NCBI RefSeq assembly: GCF_004134825.1 | Contig: NZ_SDPN01000003.1 | Span: forward strand, 124,001-188,000 | Origin: Agromyces albus | GTDB lineage: Bacteria > Actinomycetota > Actinomycetes > Actinomycetales > Microbacteriaceae | Length of the DNA: 64,000 nt | Direction: 5' to 3' | Part shown: positions 501 through 34,764 of the stretch, piece after piece | Layout: each line of letters begins with the position of its first letter | Position numbering within the stretch: the first letter of the stretch is position 1 | The notes under the pieces: generated by a model | The model's database searches: none | Told to the model about the DNA's origin: nothing | Seen by the model: only the letters and a program-made list of their open reading frames with translations | Translations under genes and position numbers: made by a program

Positions 501-2146
501 GAGAGTGCCTCCTTCTCCGACTTGCCCGCCAACGCGCGGTAGATCCGCGCGGAGAACGACGAATCGTGCGCCGTGATGCCGCGGCCGATCGGCCACGTCG
601 TGCCGGATGCCGCGGCCTCGAATGAGTCCTGCCAGTCGAGGTATTCGATGCCGAGCCCGGTCGCGCACGTCTCGTCCAGCTGGCGTGATGCCCGCGCGAG
701 CTCGTCGCGCGATCGCGTCGAGATCGTCACGTATCCAACCCATGCCGCACCGTGGTGCCCGGTGCCGGCGCGAAGATCGATTCGCCGCCGCTTCGATGCC
801 GTCATTGCGGTTCCTGTCTCGTCAAGGTCGACCGCGCCGGCCTCGCTCTTGGAGATCGCCTCGGCCTGGTCGCGCACGAGATCTCGCTGCGCTGCGGCCT
901 TGGCCTCACCGGCGGGCACAAGGTGAATGTGGAAGCTCACCGATCGGATGAACTGGACGTCTCGACCGATGAGGAGATCCAGCGCCCACAGCTGCGTGCG
1001 CGGTGCGGTGGCGAGCGCGTCGGCGGTGATCTTCGCCGTGCGGTGCCACCACTCCACGGGCTCGCCCGTGAGCGGGTCGATGCCCTCCACGACGTGTGCG
1101 GAGAACTCGTCGTGCGATCGCACACCGAGCCGTGACGGGTGCACGTCCACGACGTAATCGATCGGCCGTGAGGGGTTCTGCTGGTGCAGCACCACCGCGG
1201 CGACCTGGCGTGCGGAGAGCACGTCGACCTGGCCCATGCGGGCCTCGGTCAGTCCACGGTGCGCGGATGCGATCTCCTCGTGCATGAGGCCACGCCAGCC
1301 ATCGCGGCCCTGGCCGTACTTGCGTGCAGAGTCGTAGAACGCCGGCGACAGCGGCCATTTGACCGTGACGAAGTGCCGTTGCACCATCGCTCCATCGCCG
1401 GTGCGGCGCAGCACTTCCTCGTAGGAATTGATCGCGTCCGCCGGCGCGTCGACGTCGAGGCTGTTGAGTACCCAGAACTCCTGCAACGCGGTATCTGCCG
1501 GCAGTACGCGCGTCATCGTCTGCACGTCCTCAACGAGCACGGACGGCACCGCTCGCGAGGCCAGGAACGCGCCCCAGCCCTCGGCCGCGCGGGTCATGAC
1601 TGACGTCGACTCGATGCCGCGTAGCTGGCCCGTCACCGAGAACGTGACAGCCAGATAGCCGCGCTCACCGATCGGAGCGTGCCACTGGATGCCAGGCACG
1701 CCGCGGCCGCCTTCGAGCCAGCCCATGCCGTCTGCCCCATCGGGGTTCGCGCGCATCGCGGCGAGCGTGCGCTGCGCCTCCCACTTCTGGGTGCGGCCCT
1801 TGGCCATACGCACGGCCTGCTCGGCCTGATCCCAGGCTGCGACGTCGTACGGCTCGAATGCGTCAGTGCCGGCGGCCAGACGGGCCTTCCAGCGACGCCG
1901 GCGGCGGCTGCGCTCCACGATCGTGCCGCGGTGCGTCTTGGCGGTGACGAGCATCGTCACGCCCACGCCGCCAAGGCCGATCAACAGCCCCGGCCAGCCG
2001 GCGAAGATCGTCACGATCATGCCGGCCACGACGAACCCGATGATCAGAGCAATTCGCGTCTTTGAGTGGGTGCCACCGAAAAACGAGCGGTGTCCGGACT
2101 CGCCGCCTAGATGCCGCACGATCGCGCGCGTCTGTGGCTGACTCAT
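497..2146 (-). CDS. SCO6880-type conjugal transfer membrane protein
   Basis: The 549-residue protein has two closely spaced hydrophobic helices at about residues 32-69, then a basic segment (RSRRRRRWK) and a long soluble region. This layout matches the SCO6880-type proteins that sit beside the VirB4 ATPase in actinobacterial conjugative elements and probably work like a PrgI or VirB4 N-terminal membrane partner. Its start overlaps the preceding stop (ATGA at 2143-2146) and its own stop overlaps the ATPase start, so it lies inside a tightly coupled operon. No catalytic motif is visible. The family assignment rests on layout and context and is inferred. Confidence 0.72.
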   Translation of the reverse strand: MSQPQTRAIVRHLGGESGHRSFFGGTHSKTRIALIIGFVVAGMIVTIFAGWPGLLIGLGGVGVTMLVTAKTHRGTIVERSRRRRRWKARLAAGTDAFEPYDVAAWDQAEQAVRMAKGRTQKWEAQRTLAAMRANPDGADGMGWLEGGRGVPGIQWHAPIGERGYLAVTFSVTGQLRGIESTSVMTRAAEGWGAFLASRAVPSVLVEDVQTMTRVLPADTALQEFWVLNSLDVDAPADAINSYEEVLRRTGDGAMVQRHFVTVKWPLSPAFYDSARKYGQGRDGWRGLMHEEIASAHRGLTEARMGQVDVLSARQVAAVVLHQQNPSRPIDYVVDVHPSRLGVRSHDEFSAHVVEGIDPLTGEPVEWWHRTAKITADALATAPRTQLWALDLLIGRDVQFIRSVSFHIHLVPAGEAKAAAQRDLVRDQAEAISKSEAGAVDLDETGTAMTASKRRRIDLRAGTGHHGAAWVGYVTISTRSRDELARASRQLDETCATGLGIEYLDWQDSFEAAASGTTWPIGRGITAHDSSFSARIYRALAGKSEKEALS

Positions 2147-3513
2147 GGTCGATCTCCCCCGATGTTCGAGCCTTGGTCATCCATCGGCGCGACCGCCTGA
2201 TTCGAGGCGGCCTCTCCGACTTCCCGAGCCTTCTCTGCCGCTCCAACCGCGGCCGCGGCAATGAGGGTCGGAACGCCGATCGCGGCTCCGACTCCCGTAG
2301 CGGACTCGGCTGCGCCCGCCGCAGCGAGCCCTTCTGCCCCGGCCGCTTCCCCGGCGCCGGCGCTGGCCGCGACCTTACTGCCGGCCGCGCCCGCGTCACC
2401 CGCTGCACCGTCTGCGGCTCGCGCCGCAGCGACATCAGAGAGTCCTCCGCCGCCAGCGCTCTGGACGGTCGACGGCTGCGCGTCGCTCGTGGCCGAGTTC
2501 GACGTGCTCGACGTGTTCGAACCGCTGTCGGCGCTCTGGCCGTACCTTTTACCAGCATCCGTCATGTTGTTCGAGCCGATCGGGCTCCCGCTCAGCGTCG
2601 GCCCGCTCGTGCCGCCCATCCCGGTCGGGATGACGGGCGCGAACTTGAGCAACAGCAACGGCGAGAGAGCCGCCATGAACAGGGCGATGATCGCGACGAG
2701 GAACGTCACGAGCGTTTGCAGCGGTTCGTTCTGCCCGAGTGTCACGATGCTGCCGGCCATCATGTTGAAGGCGAAGCCGAGTAGGAAGAACAGCAGCGGA
2801 TGCGCCGCGAGGATCCCGAGCCAGACCTGCACGAGACGGATGCCGAAGCTGCGCTTCGTGGGGTCGATGATCCAGACGATACCGAGCGGGATAAGCACGC
2901 CCGTGAAGTAGAGCGTGACCAGCTGCACGATGAGCATGAGCACCACCAAGAACAGGCCGATGACCATAAGCAGCATGAGCACGACCGCGACCACAACGCC
3001 GCCGGTGAGGGCCACCGGATCCGCGGTGTTGATCATGCCCTCCATTCGGGTAACGACCTGAGAGGTTGAACCCGAGACGCCCCAGGTGATGAACACGTTT
3101 GAGAGGGCGTGGAAGAAGTTCACCAGGACGTACCCAAGCATCGGGCCGAACATCGCGCCCGCCATGAACAGCGGGAAGTAGATGCCGATCGATTCCAAGA
3201 GATCGCGACCGGCCATCGTGCCGCGCGCCGTCCGCACAAACTGCGGAATCAGCAGCACGATCGCGGAAAAAATCGCGGTCGCAAACGCGATCGCATATGC
3301 GTTCAGGAACCACTCGGCCGTGAGATCGGGCAGCGTCGCCTTGGTGAGTGCCGGCAGCACGTCGTTGGCGAGCTGGGATGCGGCATCTTTCAATGCCTTA
3401 AAAGTGTTGCCCCACGGATCCTGCCAGTAATTGACGGCTCCGCCGATCGTTTCGCCAATACCGCTGATGAAGCAGACAGGGTCGGTGCATGCTTCATTCG
3501 CCTGGACCTGCAT
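2143..3513 (-). CDS. VirB6/TrbL-like polytopic conjugation membrane protein
   Basis: The 456-residue protein starts with a soluble N-terminus containing two cysteines, then has about six hydrophobic segments between residues 70 and 290. A long Ala/Gly/Ser-rich tail follows, ending in a likely cytoplasmic or disordered region. This is the form of VirB6/TrbL-type channel proteins of type IV secretion systems. The start codon overlaps the end of the upstream gene (TGATG at 3511-3515) and the 3' end overlaps the next start by four bases. The probable role is the inner-membrane platform of the mating channel; the family is judged from topology and neighbours only. Confidence 0.72.
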   Translation of the reverse strand: MQVQANEACTDPVCFISGIGETIGGAVNYWQDPWGNTFKALKDAASQLANDVLPALTKATLPDLTAEWFLNAYAIAFATAIFSAIVLLIPQFVRTARGTMAGRDLLESIGIYFPLFMAGAMFGPMLGYVLVNFFHALSNVFITWGVSGSTSQVVTRMEGMINTADPVALTGGVVVAVVLMLLMVIGLFLVVLMLIVQLVTLYFTGVLIPLGIVWIIDPTKRSFGIRLVQVWLGILAAHPLLFFLLGFAFNMMAGSIVTLGQNEPLQTLVTFLVAIIALFMAALSPLLLLKFAPVIPTGMGGTSGPTLSGSPIGSNNMTDAGKRYGQSADSGSNTSSTSNSATSDAQPSTVQSAGGGGLSDVAAARAADGAAGDAGAAGSKVAASAGAGEAAGAEGLAAAGAAESATGVGAAIGVPTLIAAAAVGAAEKAREVGEAASNQAVAPMDDQGSNIGGDRP

Positions 3514-19617: not shown

Positions 19618-20079
19618 ATGACTGAGTTCGTTTCCGCCACCGCGGACATCCGCGGCGACTACCGCTACTCGCTGACGCGCGTCTGGGACGAAGCGCTGCC
19701 GACGATCACATTCGTGCTACTGAACCCGAGCACCGCCGACGCGCAGCAGCTCGATCCGACACTGCGGCGGTGCGTGAGTTTCGCGACGCGCGAGGGGTAC
19801 GGCGGCATGGTCATCCTCAACCTGTACGCGTTCCGCACCAAGTCCCCGAAGTTGATGAAGGCCGCGGCTGACCCGGTGGGACCGGAGAACGATCGCGTGC
19901 TCGCAGGTGCGACCGGCACCGTCGTCGCCGGGTGGGGCAACATCGCCGACCCCGAGCGCGTCGCCCAGGCGGTGGCGCTCCTGCCGCCGCTCCACGCGCT
20001 GGGGATCAACGAGGGTGGACAACCGACGCATCCGCTCTACGTGCTCGGCGATGCGCCGCTGATCGAGTGGATGCCGTAA
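19618..20079 (+). CDS. DUF1643 domain protein
   Basis: The 153-residue protein matches the DUF1643 pattern: YRYSLTRVWDE, FVLLNPSTADAQQLDPTLRRC, the glycine-rich GGMVILNLYAFR, and GWGNIADPERV. GAGAGAGGG lies upstream of ATG 19618. The family is widespread in phages and mobile elements; its biochemical role is not established. It is divergent from the CoiA-like gene, with about 80 bases between them. Confidence 0.82.
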   Translation: MTEFVSATADIRGDYRYSLTRVWDEALPTITFVLLNPSTADAQQLDPTLRRCVSFATREGYGGMVILNLYAFRTKSPKLMKAAADPVGPENDRVLAGATGTVVAGWGNIADPERVAQAVALLPPLHALGINEGGQPTHPLYVLGDAPLIEWMP

Positions 20080-23167: not shown

Positions 23168-24043
23168 GTGGAACTGACCGAATCCTGGCGCGATGTGATG
23201 CCCCAGCCGCTGCTGGAGCGGTACCGTTTCGCTGAAACACGCAACGCTGCGATGTTGATCAGATCGACGCACCCTCAAGAGTTCGAAGACCTGTGTCGTG
23301 TTCTTGAAGCGTTTTACTTCGATCTAGACCGCATCGTCCGGCCTGGCGGGTCGAAGCATCTGATCTCGCTCGAGCTCGACGAGGCGTTCCGAGAGCTTGG
23401 CTGGCGCGAAGGCAGGTACGACCAGGAGCTGACGACCACGCTCACGCTTGAGCCGTACCGCGCAGCCGGTGAGAGGGCGAAAAGGCGGCGCAGCACCGTC
23501 AACGAGTATGGCGGCCACAAGATCGACAACGTAAAGGGCCGTATCGGGCTTGACGTCGAGTGGAACCCGAAGGACGGCAACCTCGACCGAGACTTCGGTA
23601 ACTTCCGCGCGCTCTACGACGGCGGCGCGCTCGACGCAGGGGTGATCGTCACCCGCACTGTCACCGGCATGCGGGACCTCTGGGTCGACACGATTGCGCG
23701 CAGCAAGGAGATCGCACCAAGCGAGGCCTGGGCGAATGAGTGGGCGCAGCGAATCGAGAAGACGCCGAACGATCCTCTCGGCACGAGCACGACGTCGAAC
23801 TTCGAAAAGCTCGTTCCCCGAGTCAAGCGCGGTGACGGCGGTGGATGCCCGATTCTCGCGATTGCCATCACGACCGAGCTCTACGACTGGCCCCATGATC
23901 TGGACATGGCGATTCGCAACCTTGCGCGGAGCGTAGACCGTGGCGTCACGCCAGAACGCCTTGGCCATCGGATGGGGCTGGTTCACACTGACGCGATCGC
24001 ACCGGAACTCCTTAGGTCAGACGACGACCTCGAGGACCAATAG
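23168..24043 (+). CDS. BglII/BstYI-like type II restriction endonuclease
   Basis: From GTG 23168 the protein has 291 residues (the start is uncertain; several GTG codons precede it). The central part HKIDNVKGRIGLDVEWN followed by GNLDRDFGNFRALYDGGALDAGVIVTR strongly resembles the BglII/BstYI endonuclease family. The D and E-x-N residues (about D120 and E131) form the catalytic site. The family cuts sequences with a GATC core (AGATCT, RGATCY); specificity here is unknown. It precedes a GIY-YIG nuclease, McrBC and an MT-A70 methyltransferase on the same strand, which together look like one restriction cluster. Confidence 0.78.
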   Translation: MELTESWRDVMPQPLLERYRFAETRNAAMLIRSTHPQEFEDLCRVLEAFYFDLDRIVRPGGSKHLISLELDEAFRELGWREGRYDQELTTTLTLEPYRAAGERAKRRRSTVNEYGGHKIDNVKGRIGLDVEWNPKDGNLDRDFGNFRALYDGGALDAGVIVTRTVTGMRDLWVDTIARSKEIAPSEAWANEWAQRIEKTPNDPLGTSTTSNFEKLVPRVKRGDGGGCPILAIAITTELYDWPHDLDMAIRNLARSVDRGVTPERLGHRMGLVHTDAIAPELLRSDDDLEDQ

Positions 24044-24134
24044 CGGGCATTGCCGCTCACTTGTTCCTGGTGGGCACAGCGTCGGGTGTCAGGGGCAGGA
24101 GTCTCGGACTAGTGGCGGTCGATAATCTGACGCA

Positions 24135-24683
24135 ATGAGGCTAGAGATCGAGTGGACGCGGGCTGGCTTCGAGCGATTGGGGTTCGTGGGATGGAAGACA
24201 TTCGGTGCACTCGAATCGAGAGACCTTCCGCCTCGGCACGGCGTTTACGTGGTGGTCCGCGAACCCGGCCCGCGCCCCGTTTTCCTCGTTGAGAGCGTCG
24301 GTGGCCTGCACAAGCGGAAGGCCTTGACGGTCGGGGTCGACGTACTCGAGACGGCGTGGGGCGATAACGCAGAGGTCGTCTACGTAGGCAAAGCCGGGGG
24401 CAAGCACGGGCTGAGGGACCGCTTGTGGGACTATGCGCGGCAGGGCCGCGGTCGGTCAGCGGGGCACGCCGGCGGGCGCTTCGTCTGGCAACTCCCCTCG
24501 AGTGAGGCTCTGCTCGTCGGTTGGCGGGCGACGGAAGATCTCGATGTGGGCGACGTTGAAGAGGCTCTCCTCGCTCTGCACATCGAACAGTTCGGCCGCC
24601 GACCCTTCGCGAACATGAAAGACGGCTACAAGATGGCGCCCAACGACGCGAGGCGTTTCCTCGCCGATGCTTTCGCCCAATAG
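24135..24683 (+). CDS. GIY-YIG nuclease-like protein
   Basis: The 182-residue protein has the two halves of a GIY-YIG active site: HGVYVVVREPG and, after an unusually long insert, NAEVVYVGKAGG. LRDRLWDYARQGRG provides the arginine-bearing helix, and DVGDVEEALLALHIEQFGRRPFAN contains the catalytic-type glutamate and asparagine. The inserted region is richer than in minimal GIY-YIG domains. ATG 24135 has a weak ribosome binding site. The gene sits between the BglII-like nuclease and McrB, all in the same direction, so it may be part of the same system. Confidence 0.72.
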   Translation: MRLEIEWTRAGFERLGFVGWKTFGALESRDLPPRHGVYVVVREPGPRPVFLVESVGGLHKRKALTVGVDVLETAWGDNAEVVYVGKAGGKHGLRDRLWDYARQGRGRSAGHAGGRFVWQLPSSEALLVGWRATEDLDVGDVEEALLALHIEQFGRRPFANMKDGYKMAPNDARRFLADAFAQ

Positions 24684-24699
24684 ACGCCGACTCTCGCAC

Positions 24700-24714
24700 G
24701 CCGCGCGAAGCGGC
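24700..24714. terminator. Short GC hairpin after the GIY-YIG gene
   Basis: GCCGC-GCGAA-GCGGC lies 17 bases after the stop codon. No T run follows, as often in actinobacteria. It may separate the first two genes of the cluster from mcrBC. Confidence 0.3.
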
Positions 24715-24802
24715 GCCCTGACCGCCCCGCTGTAGGTTTACCTAGGGGCGACGTCGCCTTCGCGACCCTATTTTGCGGCCGCCACGAATGTGAGGAGGGC
24801 AC

Positions 24803-26614
24803 ATGCCAGTTCGGACTCTCGGCGTGCTGTCGCTGACCAAATACATCCACTTCTCCGACGTACTCGCCCACCTGGCGGCACTTGTCCCGGGGTCAACCAC
24901 GGCTCAGGACGTCCACGCGGACCCACTGTTGGAACCGCTCTGGGACGACGTCGTCCAGTACGCTCCACGGCCGGCGAACTCGCGGGCCGTCAGTGCTACC
25001 GCGGCTGAGGTCGTGCAGGATGACGAACTGCTCAGCGCCGCACGCGCCAGGCGCCCCGAGGGTCCTCTCCTTCTTTGGTGCGCGCTCGTCTTCGCAGACA
25101 AGCGACTTGAGGCTGCTGTCCGAGAAGTGCTGACCGACGCGGACGGTCGGTTCATCGAGGGGGTTCTGAACAAGGACTCGCTCACGATTGCGCTGGCCAG
25201 CCGTTCCGACTTCGCGGCGACGAAGGCGATCACCAATGTCCTTCAAAACATGCACCAGGCCGGCATCTTCATCCCCGAACGATCCGGTTCGACAATCGTC
25301 GGAGTGCAGCAGTTCCTCCCGACCGCATTCGTTGTCCCGTCACTGCTCCGTCTCATTCAGAACCGGGTCGAATACTGGGCGGACGACACGCGATTCGCGC
25401 CGGCGTCATCTGCTCACACACTCGACTTCGCGTTGGCTCTCGGTGCGAACCACTGGCTGGGCCTCACCCGTGACGAGTTCATCCGCGCCTCTCGTGGTGC
25501 GGGGATGCCGGTTCCCGCGACCGCGCGGAAACCTGTACCCGCCGAGCTCGCCGAGCTCGCCGAGATGCTCACCGCGAAACGACAGGTCGTCCTTCAGGGC
25601 CCCCCGGGTACGGGCAAGACACACCTCGCGACCGCATACATTGACTGGGCTACCGACGGGCGGCGTCAGGAGAGCCGCCTGCAGGCGATCCTCGACGCGC
25701 TGCCGCTACGCGAGCGGACACCCGTTCGTATCGCGGACGAGGTGGAGCGGCTGGGGCTGTCCGCGCTGTGGGACATCGTGCAGTTCCACCCGTCGTACGA
25801 GTACAACGACTTTGTGCGGACCCTCGCGGCTCAGCCAGTGCCGGGTGGCGTGACTTTCGTCGCGCAGCACCGCATTTTGAGCCTCATCGCCGCGGCCGGC
25901 GTCGAACTCGCAGCGCGCGGCTCTGACTGCGAACTCGTGCTTGTGCTTGACGAGGTGAACCGCGGAAACATCCCGAGCATCTTTGGTGAGTTGTTGTATG
26001 CCCTCGAGTACCGCGGCCAGCCCGTCGCAACGGCGTACTCGGTGGACGGTGACGCTTCCATCACCATTCCCGAAAGCCTGAGCGTCATCGGCACGATGAA
26101 CACGGCTGACCGCTCAATCGCGGTCATCGACTATGCCCTACGCCGCAGGTTTGTTTTCATCACGGTGCCGGCGACCGAGCGCCCGCTCGTGAGTCACACC
26201 GGGTACGTCGATGAGCATCACCGCGCGGCGGCGCTGCAAATGTTCGCCGCAGTGCACAATGCGCTCGGCGGCTCCTTGGCAGGCATCCAGGTCGGCCCGA
26301 GTTACTACCTGCCTTCGGGTGTGGCAGTGGATCTCGATGCCGGACTCCGCGAGCTCGCCTCGCGATTTGTCTACGAGGTCCTCCCCCTGCTCGGCGAGTA
26401 TGTGCTCGAGGGCGAGCTTGACGACGGCGACCTAGCTCGCTTGGTCGGAGACTTGGGAATCGACCCAGCCACCCCCGCACGCGACCAAGTGGATGCTCTG
26501 CGTGTCGCGCTTCTGGATCGAACAGCGCCCGCGCTGGTCGGGACGCTGCCGAACGAATCCGGCGATGCCAGGGCGGACGACGAAGCGACCGAGGAAGACA
26601 CCGAGCCGCGGTGA
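24803..26614 (+). CDS. mcrB: McrB-type GTPase/AAA+ subunit
   Basis: The 603-residue protein has an N-terminal helical domain (about 1-250) that I do not recognise. An McrB-type AAA+ motor follows: Walker A LQGPPGTGKT near residue 264, Walker B LVLVLDEVNRGNIPSIFGELLYALE near 378, and the McrB signature GTMNTADRSIAVIDYALRRRF near 432. McrB hexamers hydrolyse GTP to drive McrC cleavage of modified DNA. The N-terminus would recognise DNA and differs from the classical E. coli domain. GAGGAGGG precedes ATG 24803. The stop overlaps the mcrC start. Confidence 0.88.
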   Translation: MPVRTLGVLSLTKYIHFSDVLAHLAALVPGSTTAQDVHADPLLEPLWDDVVQYAPRPANSRAVSATAAEVVQDDELLSAARARRPEGPLLLWCALVFADKRLEAAVREVLTDADGRFIEGVLNKDSLTIALASRSDFAATKAITNVLQNMHQAGIFIPERSGSTIVGVQQFLPTAFVVPSLLRLIQNRVEYWADDTRFAPASSAHTLDFALALGANHWLGLTRDEFIRASRGAGMPVPATARKPVPAELAELAEMLTAKRQVVLQGPPGTGKTHLATAYIDWATDGRRQESRLQAILDALPLRERTPVRIADEVERLGLSALWDIVQFHPSYEYNDFVRTLAAQPVPGGVTFVAQHRILSLIAAAGVELAARGSDCELVLVLDEVNRGNIPSIFGELLYALEYRGQPVATAYSVDGDASITIPESLSVIGTMNTADRSIAVIDYALRRRFVFITVPATERPLVSHTGYVDEHHRAAALQMFAAVHNALGGSLAGIQVGPSYYLPSGVAVDLDAGLRELASRFVYEVLPLLGEYVLEGELDDGDLARLVGDLGIDPATPARDQVDALRVALLDRTAPALVGTLPNESGDARADDEATEEDTEPR

Positions 26615-27960
26615 GCCCACGCGTCGAAGTCCTCACTCTCACCGAATACGGCGAGAGCGTCATCGACGATGAGCTCGCCCAGTTGGTCGACGACGACTTC
26701 TGGATGGCGTTGGGCGTGACTGTTAGCAAACAGCCCGGTGACATCGGGTGGAAGGTGAAGGCGGACGCGCTGTCGGGCATCGCCCGCGCGCGGACGCGGG
26801 AGCTCGACTTGACTGTGCGAATCATGCCGAAGCTCGCGGGTGCCGACCTTGTCTTCCTGGCGGACTACGCCTACGGCCAGCGAAGTGGGGCGCTACGCCG
26901 ACCGGACGCTGCACGCGTGGGCGTCGATAGCCAGCACAACGACCCCATCGCGACGCTACTTATCTGGTACGTGCAGTCCGTGAACGACTTCGCTACACGG
27001 TGGCTCCGCCGGTCCTATCGCAGCCGTCGCGTTACGCTCGATGGTCGGGTTCGCGGCCGCGTCCTCATCGGCCCGTACATGGCGCGCAGCCTCACCTCCG
27101 GACGGGCGAACGAGATTCCGTGCGTCGTGACGGAACGCACCATCGACACCGCGAACAACCGGGTCCTAAAGGCGGGCTTGCGTCGGGTTGCGAAGCTCGC
27201 GATGACATTGCCCGTCCCTGCAGCGCGGCGAGCGGTTCGCCGAGCCGTGGCGGGGGCACTGCCCCGCTTTGCCGAGGTGACTGATGTCGAGATTGGATCC
27301 GGGCAGCTGCGTGCAACAAGCACGAAGGGACCGGAGCGGCACTACGAGAGCATCCTCGCGACCACGCGGGACCTCCTCGAAGGCCGATTCCTCGGTCAGA
27401 CCCTCGGTCAGGCGCAGGTGGACTCGTTTCTGTGGAGCATGCCCCACTTGTTTCAGGAGGCCGTTCGCGGCATCCTCGATGCAAGCGAAGACTTCACCAT
27501 GGACGCGGCGCGGCGGCCGACTGCCAAGTACTACGACGCGAATGGGGCACGTCTGCGGTCATCGACCATCGACCCCGACTTCATACTTGCCAGTGACGAC
27601 GGCGCGCTGGTGCTCGACGCGAAGTACAAGGACGCTCTCGGCATTGGAGGTACGGACACCGAACTCGTCGAGAGCACGACCGGCCCTCGGCTTCGCGTGT
27701 CGCGAAGCGACCTCTATCAGCTCGCCGCCTACCGTCAGCATGCGGCATGGAAGGGCGCCCCGGTGGCGCTCATCTACCCCGTCGCAGTGGCACCCAATGC
27801 CGACCTGCCCAAGCCTTACGTCGTCGAAGGCCTGGGAGACCCGATCTGGTTGACGTTCATCGACGTCGGATCTCGTGCGCGCGAGCACGTCGGCGCGTTC
27901 CTCGAACGCATCGCGGAGCTTCGACGCTCCCCCAAGGGGTCGGACTCGCCGGTAGCCTGA
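26611..27960 (+). CDS. mcrC: McrC-type nuclease subunit
   Basis: The 449-residue protein starts with a GTG overlapping the mcrB stop (GTGA at 26611-26614). The N-terminal beta-rich part (LTLTEYGESVI, ARTRELDLTVRIMPK) fits McrC. The C-terminal nuclease has IDPDFILAS at about 320 and VLDAKYK at about 334, a PD-(D/E)xK pair, followed by a helix with DLYQLAAYRQHA. The YGQRSGALRRPD and IPCVVTERTIDTANNRVLKAGL segments are also typical. Together with McrB it should form a complete modification-dependent or target-specific nuclease. Confidence 0.86.
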   Translation: MSPRVEVLTLTEYGESVIDDELAQLVDDDFWMALGVTVSKQPGDIGWKVKADALSGIARARTRELDLTVRIMPKLAGADLVFLADYAYGQRSGALRRPDAARVGVDSQHNDPIATLLIWYVQSVNDFATRWLRRSYRSRRVTLDGRVRGRVLIGPYMARSLTSGRANEIPCVVTERTIDTANNRVLKAGLRRVAKLAMTLPVPAARRAVRRAVAGALPRFAEVTDVEIGSGQLRATSTKGPERHYESILATTRDLLEGRFLGQTLGQAQVDSFLWSMPHLFQEAVRGILDASEDFTMDAARRPTAKYYDANGARLRSSTIDPDFILASDDGALVLDAKYKDALGIGGTDTELVESTTGPRLRVSRSDLYQLAAYRQHAAWKGAPVALIYPVAVAPNADLPKPYVVEGLGDPIWLTFIDVGSRAREHVGAFLERIAELRRSPKGSDSPVA

Positions 27961-27975
27961 TGTCGGAGGTCGGCT

Positions 27976-28005
27976 CCAAGATCTAATCTATTGACGACCA
28001 AGATC
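27976..28005. promoter_or_regulatory. Direct repeat CCAAGATC before the methyltransferase gene
   Basis: CCAAGATC occurs at 27976-27983 and 27998-28005, 22 bases apart (two helical turns). The two contain AGATCT and AGATCC, both fitting the RGATCY pattern of BstYI-type enzymes. They could be operators, or a methylation-sensitive switch if the system recognises RGATCY; this is speculative. Confidence 0.35.
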
Positions 28006-28018
28006 CAATGGAGAAGCC

Positions 28019-28888
28019 GTGACTCTGACCCTGACTGCGCCTGAGCCCACCCGCCCGCGAGCCGAGCCGCTTCGCGAGGAATCTGAAGCCCCGCCGCTGC
28101 CAACTGTCGACGGTGGTTTCAAGACCATCCTGGCCGACCCGCCGTGGCGCTTCGCAAATCGAACGGGCAAGGTCGCACCCGAGCACCGTCGTCTCGACCG
28201 GTACAGCACGATGGACCTCGACGCCATCAAGGCTCTGCCCGTGAGTGAGGTCGTCGCGCAGAATGCGCATCTCTATCTTTGGGTCCCGAACGCCCTACTT
28301 CCCGAGGGCATCGCGGTCATGGAGGCTTGGGGCTTTCGCTATGTCTCGAACATCATCTGGGCGAAGCGCCGCAAGGACGGCGGACCCGACGGTCGCGGAG
28401 TGGGGTTCTACTTCCGCAACGTAACCGAGATCCTGCTGTTCGGCGTACGTGGAAGCATGCGGACTCTGGCGCCGGCCCGCTCGCAGGTCAACATGATTGA
28501 GACCCGCAAGCGCGAGCACAGCCGCAAGCCCGACGAGCAGTATCCGTTCATCGAGGCGTGCTCACCTGGCCCATTTCTTGAGATGTTCTCCCGCCATGCC
28601 CGCAAGGGGTGGATTCTATGGGGCGACGAGGCGGACGAGGAGCTCGAGCCGCGCGGCAGGGTACACCGCGGCTACGGGGGCGGCGAGATTGAGGCGCCAG
28701 CCGTTGCTCGCTACGAGCGTCTCGACGGCGAGGTGGCCGAGGCGCTCGGGCAACAACTGCGCGCGTTCTACGAGTCGGGCCTCAGCATTCGCGACCTTCA
28801 GAAGACGACCGGGTATTCGATTCAACGCGTACGCGGCCTCCTCGAGCGTGCGGGCGCGGATCTTCGCCCACGCGGCGGGGCCCACTAG
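28019..28888 (+). CDS. MT-A70 family adenine-N6 methyltransferase
   Basis: From GTG 28019 the protein has 289 residues. It carries FKTILADPPWRF (DPPW, about residues 40-43), the MT-A70 catalytic motif, and NAHLYLWVPNALLPEGI, IIWAKRRKDG, GVGFYFRNVTEILLFGVRG and RKPDEQYPFIEACSPGP, all typical of MT-A70 DNA methyltransferases. The C-terminal 50 residues (GLSIRDLQKTTGYSIQRVRGLLERAG) form a helix-turn-helix. It methylates adenine in DNA and is the likely protective enzyme of the cluster. GGAGAAG lies upstream. Confidence 0.85.
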   Translation: MTLTLTAPEPTRPRAEPLREESEAPPLPTVDGGFKTILADPPWRFANRTGKVAPEHRRLDRYSTMDLDAIKALPVSEVVAQNAHLYLWVPNALLPEGIAVMEAWGFRYVSNIIWAKRRKDGGPDGRGVGFYFRNVTEILLFGVRGSMRTLAPARSQVNMIETRKREHSRKPDEQYPFIEACSPGPFLEMFSRHARKGWILWGDEADEELEPRGRVHRGYGGGEIEAPAVARYERLDGEVAEALGQQLRAFYESGLSIRDLQKTTGYSIQRVRGLLERAGADLRPRGGAH

Positions 28889-29092: not shown

Positions 29093-30085
29093 GTGAGCTT
29101 GCCCGCATCGTTGCGACGTTCACCCGAGCTTGCTCTCGCGAGGGCGATCGCGGAGCTGCCTGGTGCGTCGGCGCTTCCGGGCGGCTGCTTCTTTGAGCCG
29201 AAGTGGGACGGGTTCAGGATCGCTCTGGTGCGAGATGCAGAGATACATCTCTGGTCGAGGCAGGGAAAAGACCTAACGCGGTACTTTCCCGAGCTGGCCG
29301 TGGCTGCTGGCGAGATCCCGGAGGGATGTGTCGTCGACGGTGAGGCCGTTGTGTGGAATGCGGGCCGACTCGATTTCGACGCGCTGCAGCGACGTCTCAG
29401 CACCGGGGCGGCCAAGGTGGGCCCTCTCGCGTATGCGCAGCCCGCATCCTATGTCGCGTTTGACGTCCTGGCCATCGCCGGACGCGACGTGCGAGGGATC
29501 GTCCTCCAGCACCGACGCGCATTGCTCGAGGAGCTTGCATCGACGTGGACCCCGCCGCTGAACCTCTCCCCCGTTACTCGGGATTATGACGAGGCTCGCG
29601 ACTGGCTCGCGACGATGCCGGCAACCGGCATCGAGGGCATCGTCGTCAAGGGCGCCGCTCAACGCTATGAAGGTGGACAACGTCAGTGGTTGAAGGTGAA
29701 GCACCGCGACACCATTGACGTCATCGCGGGTGCAGTGATCGGGCCGATGAGCAGGCCCGAGGCGGTCGTCGTCGGCCTCCCTGTCGCCGGCGAGCTTCGG
29801 ATCGCCGGCCGCTCGACGCCCCTCCCCCCGCACGTCGCGCGCACGCTCTCGACCTACCTGCAGCCACCCGAAGGTGAGCACCCGTGGCCGGGGGTCGTCT
29901 CGCCTGGCGCGGTCGACCGCTTCAACACCGGCCGGGATCCTGTGCGGCTCACGCTCGTTCAGCCGTTAGTCATCGAAGTATCGGCCGACGTGGCACTCTC
30001 AGGGCGGTCGTTCCGCCACGCGGTTCGGTTCATCCGTATACGTCCCGAGCTCGACGTCGCCGAGGTCGAATGGCCTGCCACGTAA
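29093..30085 (+). CDS. ATP-dependent DNA ligase (LigD ligase-domain type)
   Basis: The 330-residue protein starts at GTG 29093. The active-site lysine is in EPKWDGFR (motif I), followed by WSRQGKDLTRYFPEL, CVVDGEAVVW (motif III), FDVLAIAGRDVR, GIEGIVVKG (motif IV) and WLKVKHRDTID (motif V). It contains the nucleotidyltransferase and OB-fold only, like LigC-type or stand-alone LigD ligases, with no primase or nuclease domain. It seals nicks and double-strand breaks. Carried on the element, it may repair DNA after restriction or during transfer (inference). Confidence 0.85.
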   Translation: MSLPASLRRSPELALARAIAELPGASALPGGCFFEPKWDGFRIALVRDAEIHLWSRQGKDLTRYFPELAVAAGEIPEGCVVDGEAVVWNAGRLDFDALQRRLSTGAAKVGPLAYAQPASYVAFDVLAIAGRDVRGIVLQHRRALLEELASTWTPPLNLSPVTRDYDEARDWLATMPATGIEGIVVKGAAQRYEGGQRQWLKVKHRDTIDVIAGAVIGPMSRPEAVVVGLPVAGELRIAGRSTPLPPHVARTLSTYLQPPEGEHPWPGVVSPGAVDRFNTGRDPVRLTLVQPLVIEVSADVALSGRSFRHAVRFIRIRPELDVAEVEWPAT

Positions 30086-33506: not shown

Positions 33507-34607
33507 ATGGCAAGCATCGAGACGTATTCGACGAAGGCAGGGAAGCGCTATCGGGTGCGCTATCGCAAGCCAGACCATTCCCAGGGTGCAAAGCGAGGCT
33601 TCCGCACCAAGCGGGAGGCCGAGCTGTACCTTGCGTCAATCGAGATCTCGAAGGCACGTGGCGAGTTCGTCGAACATGGGGCGGCGCGCGCAACGATAGC
33701 CGAGCTGGGGCAGGCTTGGCTGTCGACTCAAACGCACCTAAAACCCTCGACCTATCGCACCGTAGCTGACGCATGGCGTCTTCGGGTTGAGCCAAGATGG
33801 GGGCGATATCCGGTCTCCGCCATCCAGCACAGTGACGTGCAGGCATGGGTGTCAGAGCTCTCCGCCTCCCGCTCCCCGACCGTGGTAATTCGCAGCTTCG
33901 GGGTGCTGGCCGCGATCTTAGATGTCGCCGTGCGCGATCGGCGCATTCTCTCCAATCCGGCACGAGGAATCACACTGCCGCGCAAAGAGCGCAAGACGCA
34001 CTCGTATCTAACACACGAGCAGGTCCACCGGCTCGCCACCGAGGCCGGTCCCCGCGCGGCTCTGGTGTTGACTCTCGCCTATACCGGCCTGAGATGGGGT
34101 GAGGTAGCTGCGCTCCGTGTCAGAAGCGTTGATTTCGAACGCCGGCGCATCAACGTCACCGAGAACGCCGTCGAAGTCGGAGGGGTGATTCACGTCGGCT
34201 CGCCGAAAACCTATAAGACCCGCTCCGTCCCAACGCCGCGGTTCCTTCACCCCTACCTCAACGATCAGATAAGTGGCCGGGAAGGTGACGAGCTCCTGTT
34301 CCCCGGCCCCAATGGCGACTACATGCGCCGGACTAGAACAAGCACCGGGTCGAAGTCCTGGTTCAAGACTGCGCTTCGGAACGCCTCGCTCGAGCCGATG
34401 ACCATCCACGACCTCCGGCACACTGCCGCCTCGCTCGCCGTCAGCTCAGGCGCGAACGTGAAAGCCGTCCAGCGGATGCTCGGTCACGCCTCCGCAGCAA
34501 TGACCTTGGACGTCTACAGCGACCTCTTCGACGATGACCTCGATGCGGTTTCAGACCGCCTCGATCAGGCCGTTGCGGCTGCAAGTGTGTCCAAACCGCG
34601 TCCATAG
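33507..34607 (+). CDS. Tyrosine recombinase integrase
   Basis: The 366-residue protein has an N-terminal AP2-like arm-binding region (residues 1-60), a core-binding SAM-like domain (62-150) and the catalytic domain. Active-site residues visible are R196 (YTGLRWGEV), a lysine near 234-237 (SPKTYKTRS), H301 and R304 (HDLRHTAAS), H327 (MLGHAS) and the nucleophile Y337 (LDVYSDL). All are intact, so it should be active. It sits 69 bases from the 3' end of tRNA-Ser(GCU), pointing at it, as expected for an element integrated there. No excisionase gene is adjacent. Confidence 0.92.
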   Translation: MASIETYSTKAGKRYRVRYRKPDHSQGAKRGFRTKREAELYLASIEISKARGEFVEHGAARATIAELGQAWLSTQTHLKPSTYRTVADAWRLRVEPRWGRYPVSAIQHSDVQAWVSELSASRSPTVVIRSFGVLAAILDVAVRDRRILSNPARGITLPRKERKTHSYLTHEQVHRLATEAGPRAALVLTLAYTGLRWGEVAALRVRSVDFERRRINVTENAVEVGGVIHVGSPKTYKTRSVPTPRFLHPYLNDQISGREGDELLFPGPNGDYMRRTRTSTGSKSWFKTALRNASLEPMTIHDLRHTAASLAVSSGANVKAVQRMLGHASAAMTLDVYSDLFDDDLDAVSDRLDQAVAAASVSKPRP

Positions 34608-34664: not shown

Positions 34665-34675
34665 TCTCTGTCTTG

Positions 34676-34764
34676 CGGAGACGGCGGGATTTGAACCCGC
34701 GGTCCCCTTACGGGGACTCCACCTTAGCAGGGTGGTGCACTCGGCCGGACTATGCGACGTCTCC
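34676..34764 (-). tRNA. tRNA-Ser(GCU), likely attachment site of the element
   Basis: The minus strand folds as a serine tRNA: acceptor GGAGACG with CGTCTCC, anticodon stem CCACC/GGTGG around loop CTGCTAA (anticodon GCT), a long variable arm, and a T arm with GGTTCAAATC. The discriminator is G; CCA is not encoded. The 3' end faces the integrase, the standard position for an attachment site. The boundary between element and chromosome is probably within this 3' part. Confidence 0.95.

Follow-up and report, generated by a model that had tools for sequence, protein, structure and literature searches.

A 64,000-nucleotide stretch of the Agromyces albus genome (the window, meaning the whole stretch) carries a cassette in which genes for a BglII-like nuclease, a GIY-YIG-like protein, the two McrBC subunits and an MT-A70 adenine methyltransferase (MT) follow one another. 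Can one MT protect the host from several nucleases at once? A reading made before from the letters alone (the sequence-only reading) had proposed a composite defence in which the MT guards against all three nucleases. Our analysis indicates that the cassette is probably a restriction-modification (R-M) system with one MT and two restriction modules, BglII-like and McrBC, that share the same target word, RGATCY (R, purine; Y, pyrimidine). The five co-directional genes proposed before are real, as all have intact open reading frames (ORFs) on the + strand between 23168 and 28888 with small gaps between successive ORFs (91 bp, 119 bp, a 4-bp overlap and 58 bp). The sequence relatives of the window's proteins are actinobacterial. 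The parts of the cassette are the following.

23168..24043, + strand: BglII/BstYI-family restriction endonuclease (PF09195), 291 aa, GTG start; predicted cutter of unmethylated RGATCY
24135..24683, + strand: GIY-YIG-like small protein, motif positions conserved in six homologues; probable passenger
24803..26614, + strand: McrB-like AAA+ subunit (AAA_5), with residues 1-246 as a BrxA-like putative DNA-reading domain (predicted fold)
26611..27960, + strand: McrC-like PD-(D/E)xK nuclease subunit (PF10117; IDPDF...LDAKYK), 4-bp overlap with mcrB
27979..28006, no strand: putative operator, AGATCT at 27979-27984 and AGATCC at 28001-28006 at a spacing of 22 bp, within the 58 bp between mcrC and the MT gene
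28019..28888, + strand: MT-A70 adenine methyltransferase (PF05063) with C-terminal HTH_58 (PF19575); predicted product RG(6mA)TCY (6mA, N6-methyladenine)

Gene company was compared across homologous loci. At 14 of 14 loci of the McrBC subfamily (the window, 4 plasmid and 9 genome loci), the MT gene is in the same cluster, and 12 of these loci lack a BglII-like gene. On the four plasmids, which encode full-length McrB relatives, mcrB adjoins an MT-A70 gene, and the stretches opened contain no BglII-like gene; the four stand for 4 of the 6 records with at least 80% coverage, H15 and H19 being left out for lengths and scores near-identical to those of H14 and H18. The nine genome loci were found via McrC alone, in a pattern scan of one genome per species over 84,980 species that yielded nine confirmed loci. 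The MT gene lies beside mcrB in eight of them, and a BglII-like gene lies between the two in the remaining one (Gordonia spumicola, L054). In the window, the MT gene follows mcrC and is not beside mcrB. Two further McrC matches (G590 and G606) are excluded from this count, and duplicates were dropped (L001, L013 and L062, copies of the window and of the viral contig L003). As a control, the next-ranking McrB matches, 20 genes from other subfamilies, were viewed with about 15 kb around each: this MT was found with 0 of 20 and a BglII-like gene with 0 of 20. Type IV systems have no cognate methyltransferase, but all 14 McrBC clusters contain one. The layout in the window is that of McrBC-type R-M systems, with a McrB AAA+ part joined to an unrelated N-terminal domain (N-domain), a PD-(D/E)xK McrC and a linked MT.

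Viewed from the MT, partners swap on one MT subfamily. Among 101 MT loci, 54 have a BglII-like gene, 12 have McrBC, 2 have both and 33 have neither. An MT-seeded viral scan gave BglII-like genes in 46 of 79 loci, McrBC in 0 of 79 and neither in 33 of 79; these come from the best 80 of 524 confirmed loci, and many of them end at a contig edge, so the nuclease partners are a lower bound. With plasmid relatives of the BglII-like nuclease (9 of 13 matching records examined; H3, H9, H10 and H11 left out), six loci adjoin an MT-A70 gene, two a Dam-type adenine methylase gene and one no MT gene at a record edge, and McrB or McrC was seen in 0 of 9 within the stretches opened. The sequence-only reading had set a BglII-like/GIY-YIG pair against a McrBC/MT-A70 pair, and this division does not hold, as homologues pair the BglII-like gene with the MT. 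The same reading would have given way if homologous loci showed its modules to be independent neighbours. They do occur apart, but the MT is common to both when apart, and this sharing of one MT subfamily strengthens the idea of shared protection. Judged from gene company, one MT most likely protects the host from the BglII-like nuclease and from McrBC alike. Of the proposed protection against three nucleases, the part concerning these two stands, with the same MT subfamily and a recurrence in L054, and the part concerning the GIY-YIG-like protein, which stands alone at the other loci examined, falls away. As a separate observation, plasmids of Acinetobacter (L008) and Dyadobacter (L011) combine a BglII-like nuclease with a Dam-type methylase, not an MT-A70 one, and with a small helix-turn-helix (HTH) regulator.

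The predicted target comes from the nearest relatives. The MT matches PF05063 (E 1.7e-27) and, in its C-terminal part, HTH_58 (PF19575, E 1.8e-10), contains ADPPW at 39, and has the type II methyltransferase model MTase_II as its best PADLOC model (E 1.1e-126). Its nearest tested relative is M.Nph3I of the Nitratiruptor phage NrS-3 (NRS3_07, BCD83123.1), 71% identical over 178 aa, which is reported to turn RGATCY into RG6mATCY and to prefer GGATCC strongly over the other three RGATCY words in vitro (PMC10734518). The neighbouring BglII-family enzyme, R.Nph3I, is reported to cut RGATCY and to be fully inhibited by 6mA (PMC10734518). In Acinetobacter, a system whose nuclease also belongs to this family is described with m6A:RGATCY and with Dam methylation as protective (PMC10287943). 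Identity of the window MT is 67-80% with the four McrBC-linked MTs from plasmids and 56-74% with seven BglII-linked ones; its predicted product is RG6mATCY.

The BglII-like protein matches PF09195 (Endonuc-BglII) with E 1.2e-25 (90.6 bits against a cut-off of 26), BstYI in the PDB with E 9.6e-5, and R.Nph3I with 30% identity over 231 aa. Its active-site motifs are intact, as had been said before: D120, D129 and E131 are present, and D120...D129-V-E131 is aligned with D...E-V-Q of BstYI. These residues, like the active-site residues named for the other cassette proteins, are the ones that we take to be catalytic. The GTG start at 23168 agrees with the N-termini of the nearest homologues, VELTESW here and MQLTESW in L003 and L054. 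The best viral-contig relative is L003 (51%), in which a divergent MT lies beside the nuclease.

The 58-bp gap between mcrC and the MT gene contains something absent from the sequence-only reading, a pair of RGATCY words, AGATCT at 27979 and AGATCC at 28001. All 15 cassettes checked (14 McrBC loci and L003) have at least one RGATCY in the 150 bp that precede the MT start, and 14 of the 15 have exactly two; two further sites are just inside the annotated MT start of L044. Upstream sites were counted at 88 of the 101 MT loci, the other 13 having no usable upstream region or motif. By a direct HTH search, 22 of the 88 MTs have a C-terminal HTH, 63 do not and 3 are cut off. Two or more upstream sites were found with 21 of the 22 HTH-bearing MTs versus 1 of the 63 without HTH, and the three loci cut off before the HTH part had no pair. 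The pair spacing across the 21 loci is 12 to 24 bp, and their partners are McrBC (12), BglII-like (6), both (2) and none found (1). Such a pair is present in 2.2% of random 270-bp segments from the same loci. After thinning at 90% identity (88 to 79 loci) and splitting by a profile score of 465 as a proxy for HTH, 19 HTH-type loci contained 44 RGATCY words versus 4.8 expected. Among 64 palindromes AGATCT ranks first in this set (31 observed versus 1.5 expected), while YGATCR is not enriched (7 observed versus 10.9 expected).

As the pair tracks the HTH domain, the MT would bind there, or methylation of the pair would feed back, or both, which suggests MT self-regulation. Self-sites have reported precedents in SsoII, Ecl18kI and CfrBI, and the expression of LlaJI is described as controlled by target sites in its promoter (PMC11779793). 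The pair is also indirect evidence, independent of homology, for a target shared by both nucleases, and McrBC is provisionally linked to RGATCY because of its strict association with the MT together with this pair. Separately, a viral HTH-bearing MT (L064, IMGVR_UViG_3300029200_000001, 1980-3335), 88% identical to the G. spumicola MT, has three upstream RGATCY words; BglII-like or McrBC genes were not seen in 11 kb, and this MT is possibly a phage-borne protection against such systems.

The composite recurs in G. spumicola. There, the MT gene, the BglII-like gene, mcrB and mcrC are co-directional in that order, without a GIY-YIG gene. In a tree of McrB and McrC, L054 groups with Gordonia otitidis (L056), which has no BglII-like gene, at 100/100 and the window groups with L044 at 100/99; a grouping of the window with L054 is rejected by the approximately unbiased (AU) test (p 2e-6). 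In a tree of the BglII-like nucleases, made with 18 of 59 sequences and subject to a long-branch warning, those of the window, L054 and L003 are in one clade (99/99). A single lineage of all 14 McrBC-linked MTs is rejected (AU p 6e-36), and the BglII-linked MT of L002, which comes from the window's own bacterial family and has no McrBC within 16 kb, is sister to the McrBC-linked MT of L044 (100/98). When 11 genomes with this McrBC were searched, a BglII-like gene was found anywhere only in the two composite carriers. Because the gene orders and the McrBC branches differ, two independent assemblies of the composite are likely; an ancestral composite with repeated loss of the BglII-like gene is a possible alternative.

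How could McrBC recognize the same word? McrB matches AAA_5 (E 4.3e-13) with motifs GPPGTGKT at 266, LVLVLDEVNRG at 378 and NTAD at 433, and McrC matches PF10117 (E 1.3e-24) with IDPDF at 320 and LDAKYK at 335. For McrB residues 1-256, no Pfam family was matched, and a PDB sequence search with the N-domain gave two matches, both unrelated (E 0.11 and 0.44). The predicted structure of residues 1-246 (predicted local distance difference test score, 83.6; predicted template modelling score, 0.85) was aligned with Foldseek candidates. The top structures are BrxA (7zge; Z 10.1 over 160 residues, 3.6 Å) and 3bhw (Z 10.0), followed at lower rank by SspB (Z 7.0) and Nt.BspD6I (Z 5.3). The N-domain is thus predicted to have a fold like BrxA and SspB and, more weakly, like the recognition domains of type IIS enzymes; the BrxA paper itself is reported to note a likeness among BrxA, SspB and BpuJI (PMC9240713). 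The N-domain has no sequence match to BrxA, SspB or the FokI, BspD6I and BpuJI recognition domains and, unlike them, is fused to a McrB AAA+ part. This modelled likeness suggests, but does no more than suggest, a DNA-recognition module.

Elsewhere (L070, 221-1357), a copy of the N-domain continues into an unrelated C-terminal part; an MT-A70 gene whose product has an N-terminal HTH_3 lies nearby. This copy aligns with BrxA (Z 10.8, 158 residues), SspB (7.2), Nt.BspD6I (6.0), FokI (5.1) and the BpuJI-DNA complex (4.5). Its C-terminal part has a low-confidence predicted structure, and its nuclease nature is a guess from a D...EVK motif recognized by eye. A search of the phage collection with the fusion protein gave no matches. 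From L070, the reading module of McrB may be swappable between effectors. Viral scans with the McrC alignment and with the N-domain alignment gave no confirmed relatives, and one with McrB gave one locus (L043) of another McrB subfamily.

In the reading that we favor, the HTH-bearing MT would methylate the adenine of RGATCY in the host to give RG6mATCY, to which both nucleases would be sensitive. The BglII/BstYI-type nuclease would directly cut unmethylated RGATCY in incoming DNA. The BrxA-like N-domain of McrB would read the same unmethylated word and lead to NTP-driven assembly of McrBC, upon which McrC would cut. The MT, in whichever direction it is regulated, would be switched by the two RGATCY sites in its promoter region via HTH binding, methylation or both, while the GIY-YIG gene would be a passenger. 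We give about an even chance to a wider, 'double-barrelled' design, in which a self-site-controlled MT licenses two unrelated machines whose parts are freely mixed and were assembled more than once, with an N-domain that is movable, as in L070.

Several observations weigh against the two-module reading. A BglII-like gene is present at only 2 of the 14 McrBC loci, and the module can thus persist without a second effector. No RGATCY occurs over the 219 bp that precede the BglII-like gene, and the encoded enzyme is just 30% identical to the tested cutter R.Nph3I. M.Nph3I ends before the HTH region (209 aa) and prefers GGATCC while the self-sites are mostly AGATCT, so the specificity of the window MT may differ from it in detail. 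Among HTH-bearing MTs, the sole exception that lacks an upstream RGATCY pair is L066 (863-1730), where the HTH part is encoded in a different frame. L069 has no pair either; its MT, with the C-terminus cut off, is over the available part one of those most similar to that of the window. In the tree of BglII-like nucleases, pairing of the window with L054 is not rejected (AU p 0.098) and a common origin of the nucleases is compatible, which leaves the McrBC tree and the gene order as the grounds for independent assembly; resolution of the MT tree is poor, with stars on 5 of its 28 inner branches. With the N-domain, Foldseek itself gave no significant match (best E 0.081), and middling Z values are common, and the fold likeness is suggestive only.

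Other explanations divide the parts differently. If the cassette is a McrBC-type R-M system like LlaJI or PcaRCI that acquired a BglII-like gene, now silent, inactive or of other specificity, only McrBC would restrict. McrBC with the MT and without the BglII-like gene is indeed the commoner state (12 of 14), and in the window three genes separate the BglII-like gene from the MT gene, with no RGATCY just upstream of the former. On the other hand, the BglII-like ORF is intact with its active-site residues, its relatives accompany the same MT subfamily in many elements, and the combination is found in two genera with different orders, so we hold restriction by McrBC only to be unlikely. We find it quite unlikely that two independent neighbours share a defence island, a BglII-like/MT-A70 type II system and a type IV McrBC directed against modified foreign DNA, even though McrBC is classically type IV and both modules occur apart. 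One would not expect a type IV enzyme to be accompanied by an RGATCY methylase of its own. The same MT without a BglII-like gene is found at 12 of 14 McrBC loci, the same AGATCT pair is present in McrBC-only loci, and this MT is found with 0 of 20 control McrB genes. McrBC as an unrelated type IV neighbour was rejected as unlikely on the linkage counts, 14 of 14 versus 0 of 20.

McrBC could instead read the methylated site, as a guard or suicide device against foreign or competing RGATCY methylases, with tight regulation of the MT keeping the device restrained. In favor of this, McrBC of the classical kind depends on methylation, the amount of MT seems to matter, to judge from the self-site pair, and some winged-helix domains are reported to sense 6mA (PMC11037411). 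However, a resident MT with full methylation would leave the host genome permanently exposed, and LlaJI and PcaRCI, with the same architecture, are reported to have the opposite polarity (PMC1459862, PMC8989522), making a guard very unlikely. Hardly credible to us is a single three-nuclease system with all parts including the GIY-YIG-like protein; its gene is co-directional and lies between the BglII-like gene and mcrB, but is flanked by gaps of 91 and 119 bp, is not in the other cassettes examined, and occurs elsewhere without the other genes.

The GIY-YIG label is the weakest among the five ORFs, as far as motifs and profiles tell. Six homologues share the GVY/GIY, YxGKA, R96, E142 and N160 positions, and Pfam and PDB searches with the protein gave no significant match; the best GIY-YIG score in Pfam (E 0.15) came from one of the six homologues. 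A PDB sequence search with the GIY alignment gave no matches, and viral scans with the protein and with the alignment gave no confirmed relatives. The family is present in 31 of 299 Microbacteriaceae genomes. BglII-like, McrBC and MT genes were found at 0 of 34 GIY-YIG loci outside the window, 29 of which show only about 1.5 kb per side, and none of the 5 plasmid relatives examined (of 25) has other cassette genes. Conversely, the GIY-YIG gene is in none of the other R-M loci examined, aside from those collected via GIY-YIG itself. The GIY-YIG protein was rejected as a system component because it is lacking in other cassettes and solo elsewhere, and its gene is a probable, unlinked passenger.

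The two-module cassette resembles several known systems in part. Nph3I has adjacent R and M genes that are related to the BglII-like and MT genes of the window, but has no annotated McrBC in 5.5 kb, and its MT is without HTH. McrBC-type R-M is already known from LlaJI and PcaRCI, which the sequence-only reading overlooked in holding that type II systems and McrBC are normally separate. LlaJI of Lactococcus, with McrB-like R1 and McrC-like R2, is described as a McrBC-type nuclease that has a unique N-terminal specificity part and restricts unmethylated DNA (PMC1459862); it differs in having two 5-methylcytosine (5mC) methyltransferases, the target GACGC and no extra type II endonuclease. PcaRCI of Pectobacterium (PcaIAB with the Dcm-like M.PcaI) is likewise reported to be McrBC-like with an unrelated N-domain and to act on unmethylated DNA (PMC8989522). 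It differs in its 5mC at CCNGG, and PcaRCII of the same host is said to target the site when methylated, whereas a second isospecific cutter would do the reverse. The CoCoNuT census is reported to contain branches in which McrB is linked to predicted DNA methyltransferases, called surprising there and deferred to a later paper (PMC11090510). These branches possibly overlap with the McrBC subfamily described here; LlaJI, BsuMI and BrxA are absent from the main text of the census (PMC11090510). In the literature consulted, mostly without subscription journals and without REBASE, we found no 6mA/RGATCY McrBC subfamily, no isospecific BglII pairing under one MT, no recurrence of it and no self-site pair.

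If the two-module reading is true, the cassette would plainly show, in nature, a single methylation mark that serves two unrelated nucleases. It would explain how a restriction module can be gained without a new methylase, and phages would have to escape both modules. The McrBC subfamily would gain RGATCY as a candidate target, and its action on unmethylated DNA and its site-reading part would become testable in E. coli, where Dam methylation, which covers every RGATCY, could act as the switch. The self-site pair is a sequence signature for finding such systems.

The cassette lies on a mobile element, whose right end is within the window.

33507..34607, + strand: tyrosine integrase of the carrier element (PF00589, E 2.9e-24)
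34675..34699, no strand: right attachment repeat, 25 bp, at the end of tRNA-Ser(gct); identical copy at 115440-115464 of the contig that contains the window (C35)

The identical 25-bp copy of the tRNA-Ser(gct) end is 43.2 kb leftward, outside the window. This perfect repeat puts the probable length of the carrier element at about 43.2 kb, with the window beginning within it. No attachment repeat pair was found inside the window because the left copy lies beyond it. An ATP-dependent DNA ligase gene (PF01068, E 7.3e-31; 29093-30085) is directly 3′ of the cassette on the same strand. The same element also contains, on the minus strand, a gene for a CoiA-nuclease-like protein (PF06054, 17935-19536), which a DUF1643 gene (19618-20079) adjoins.

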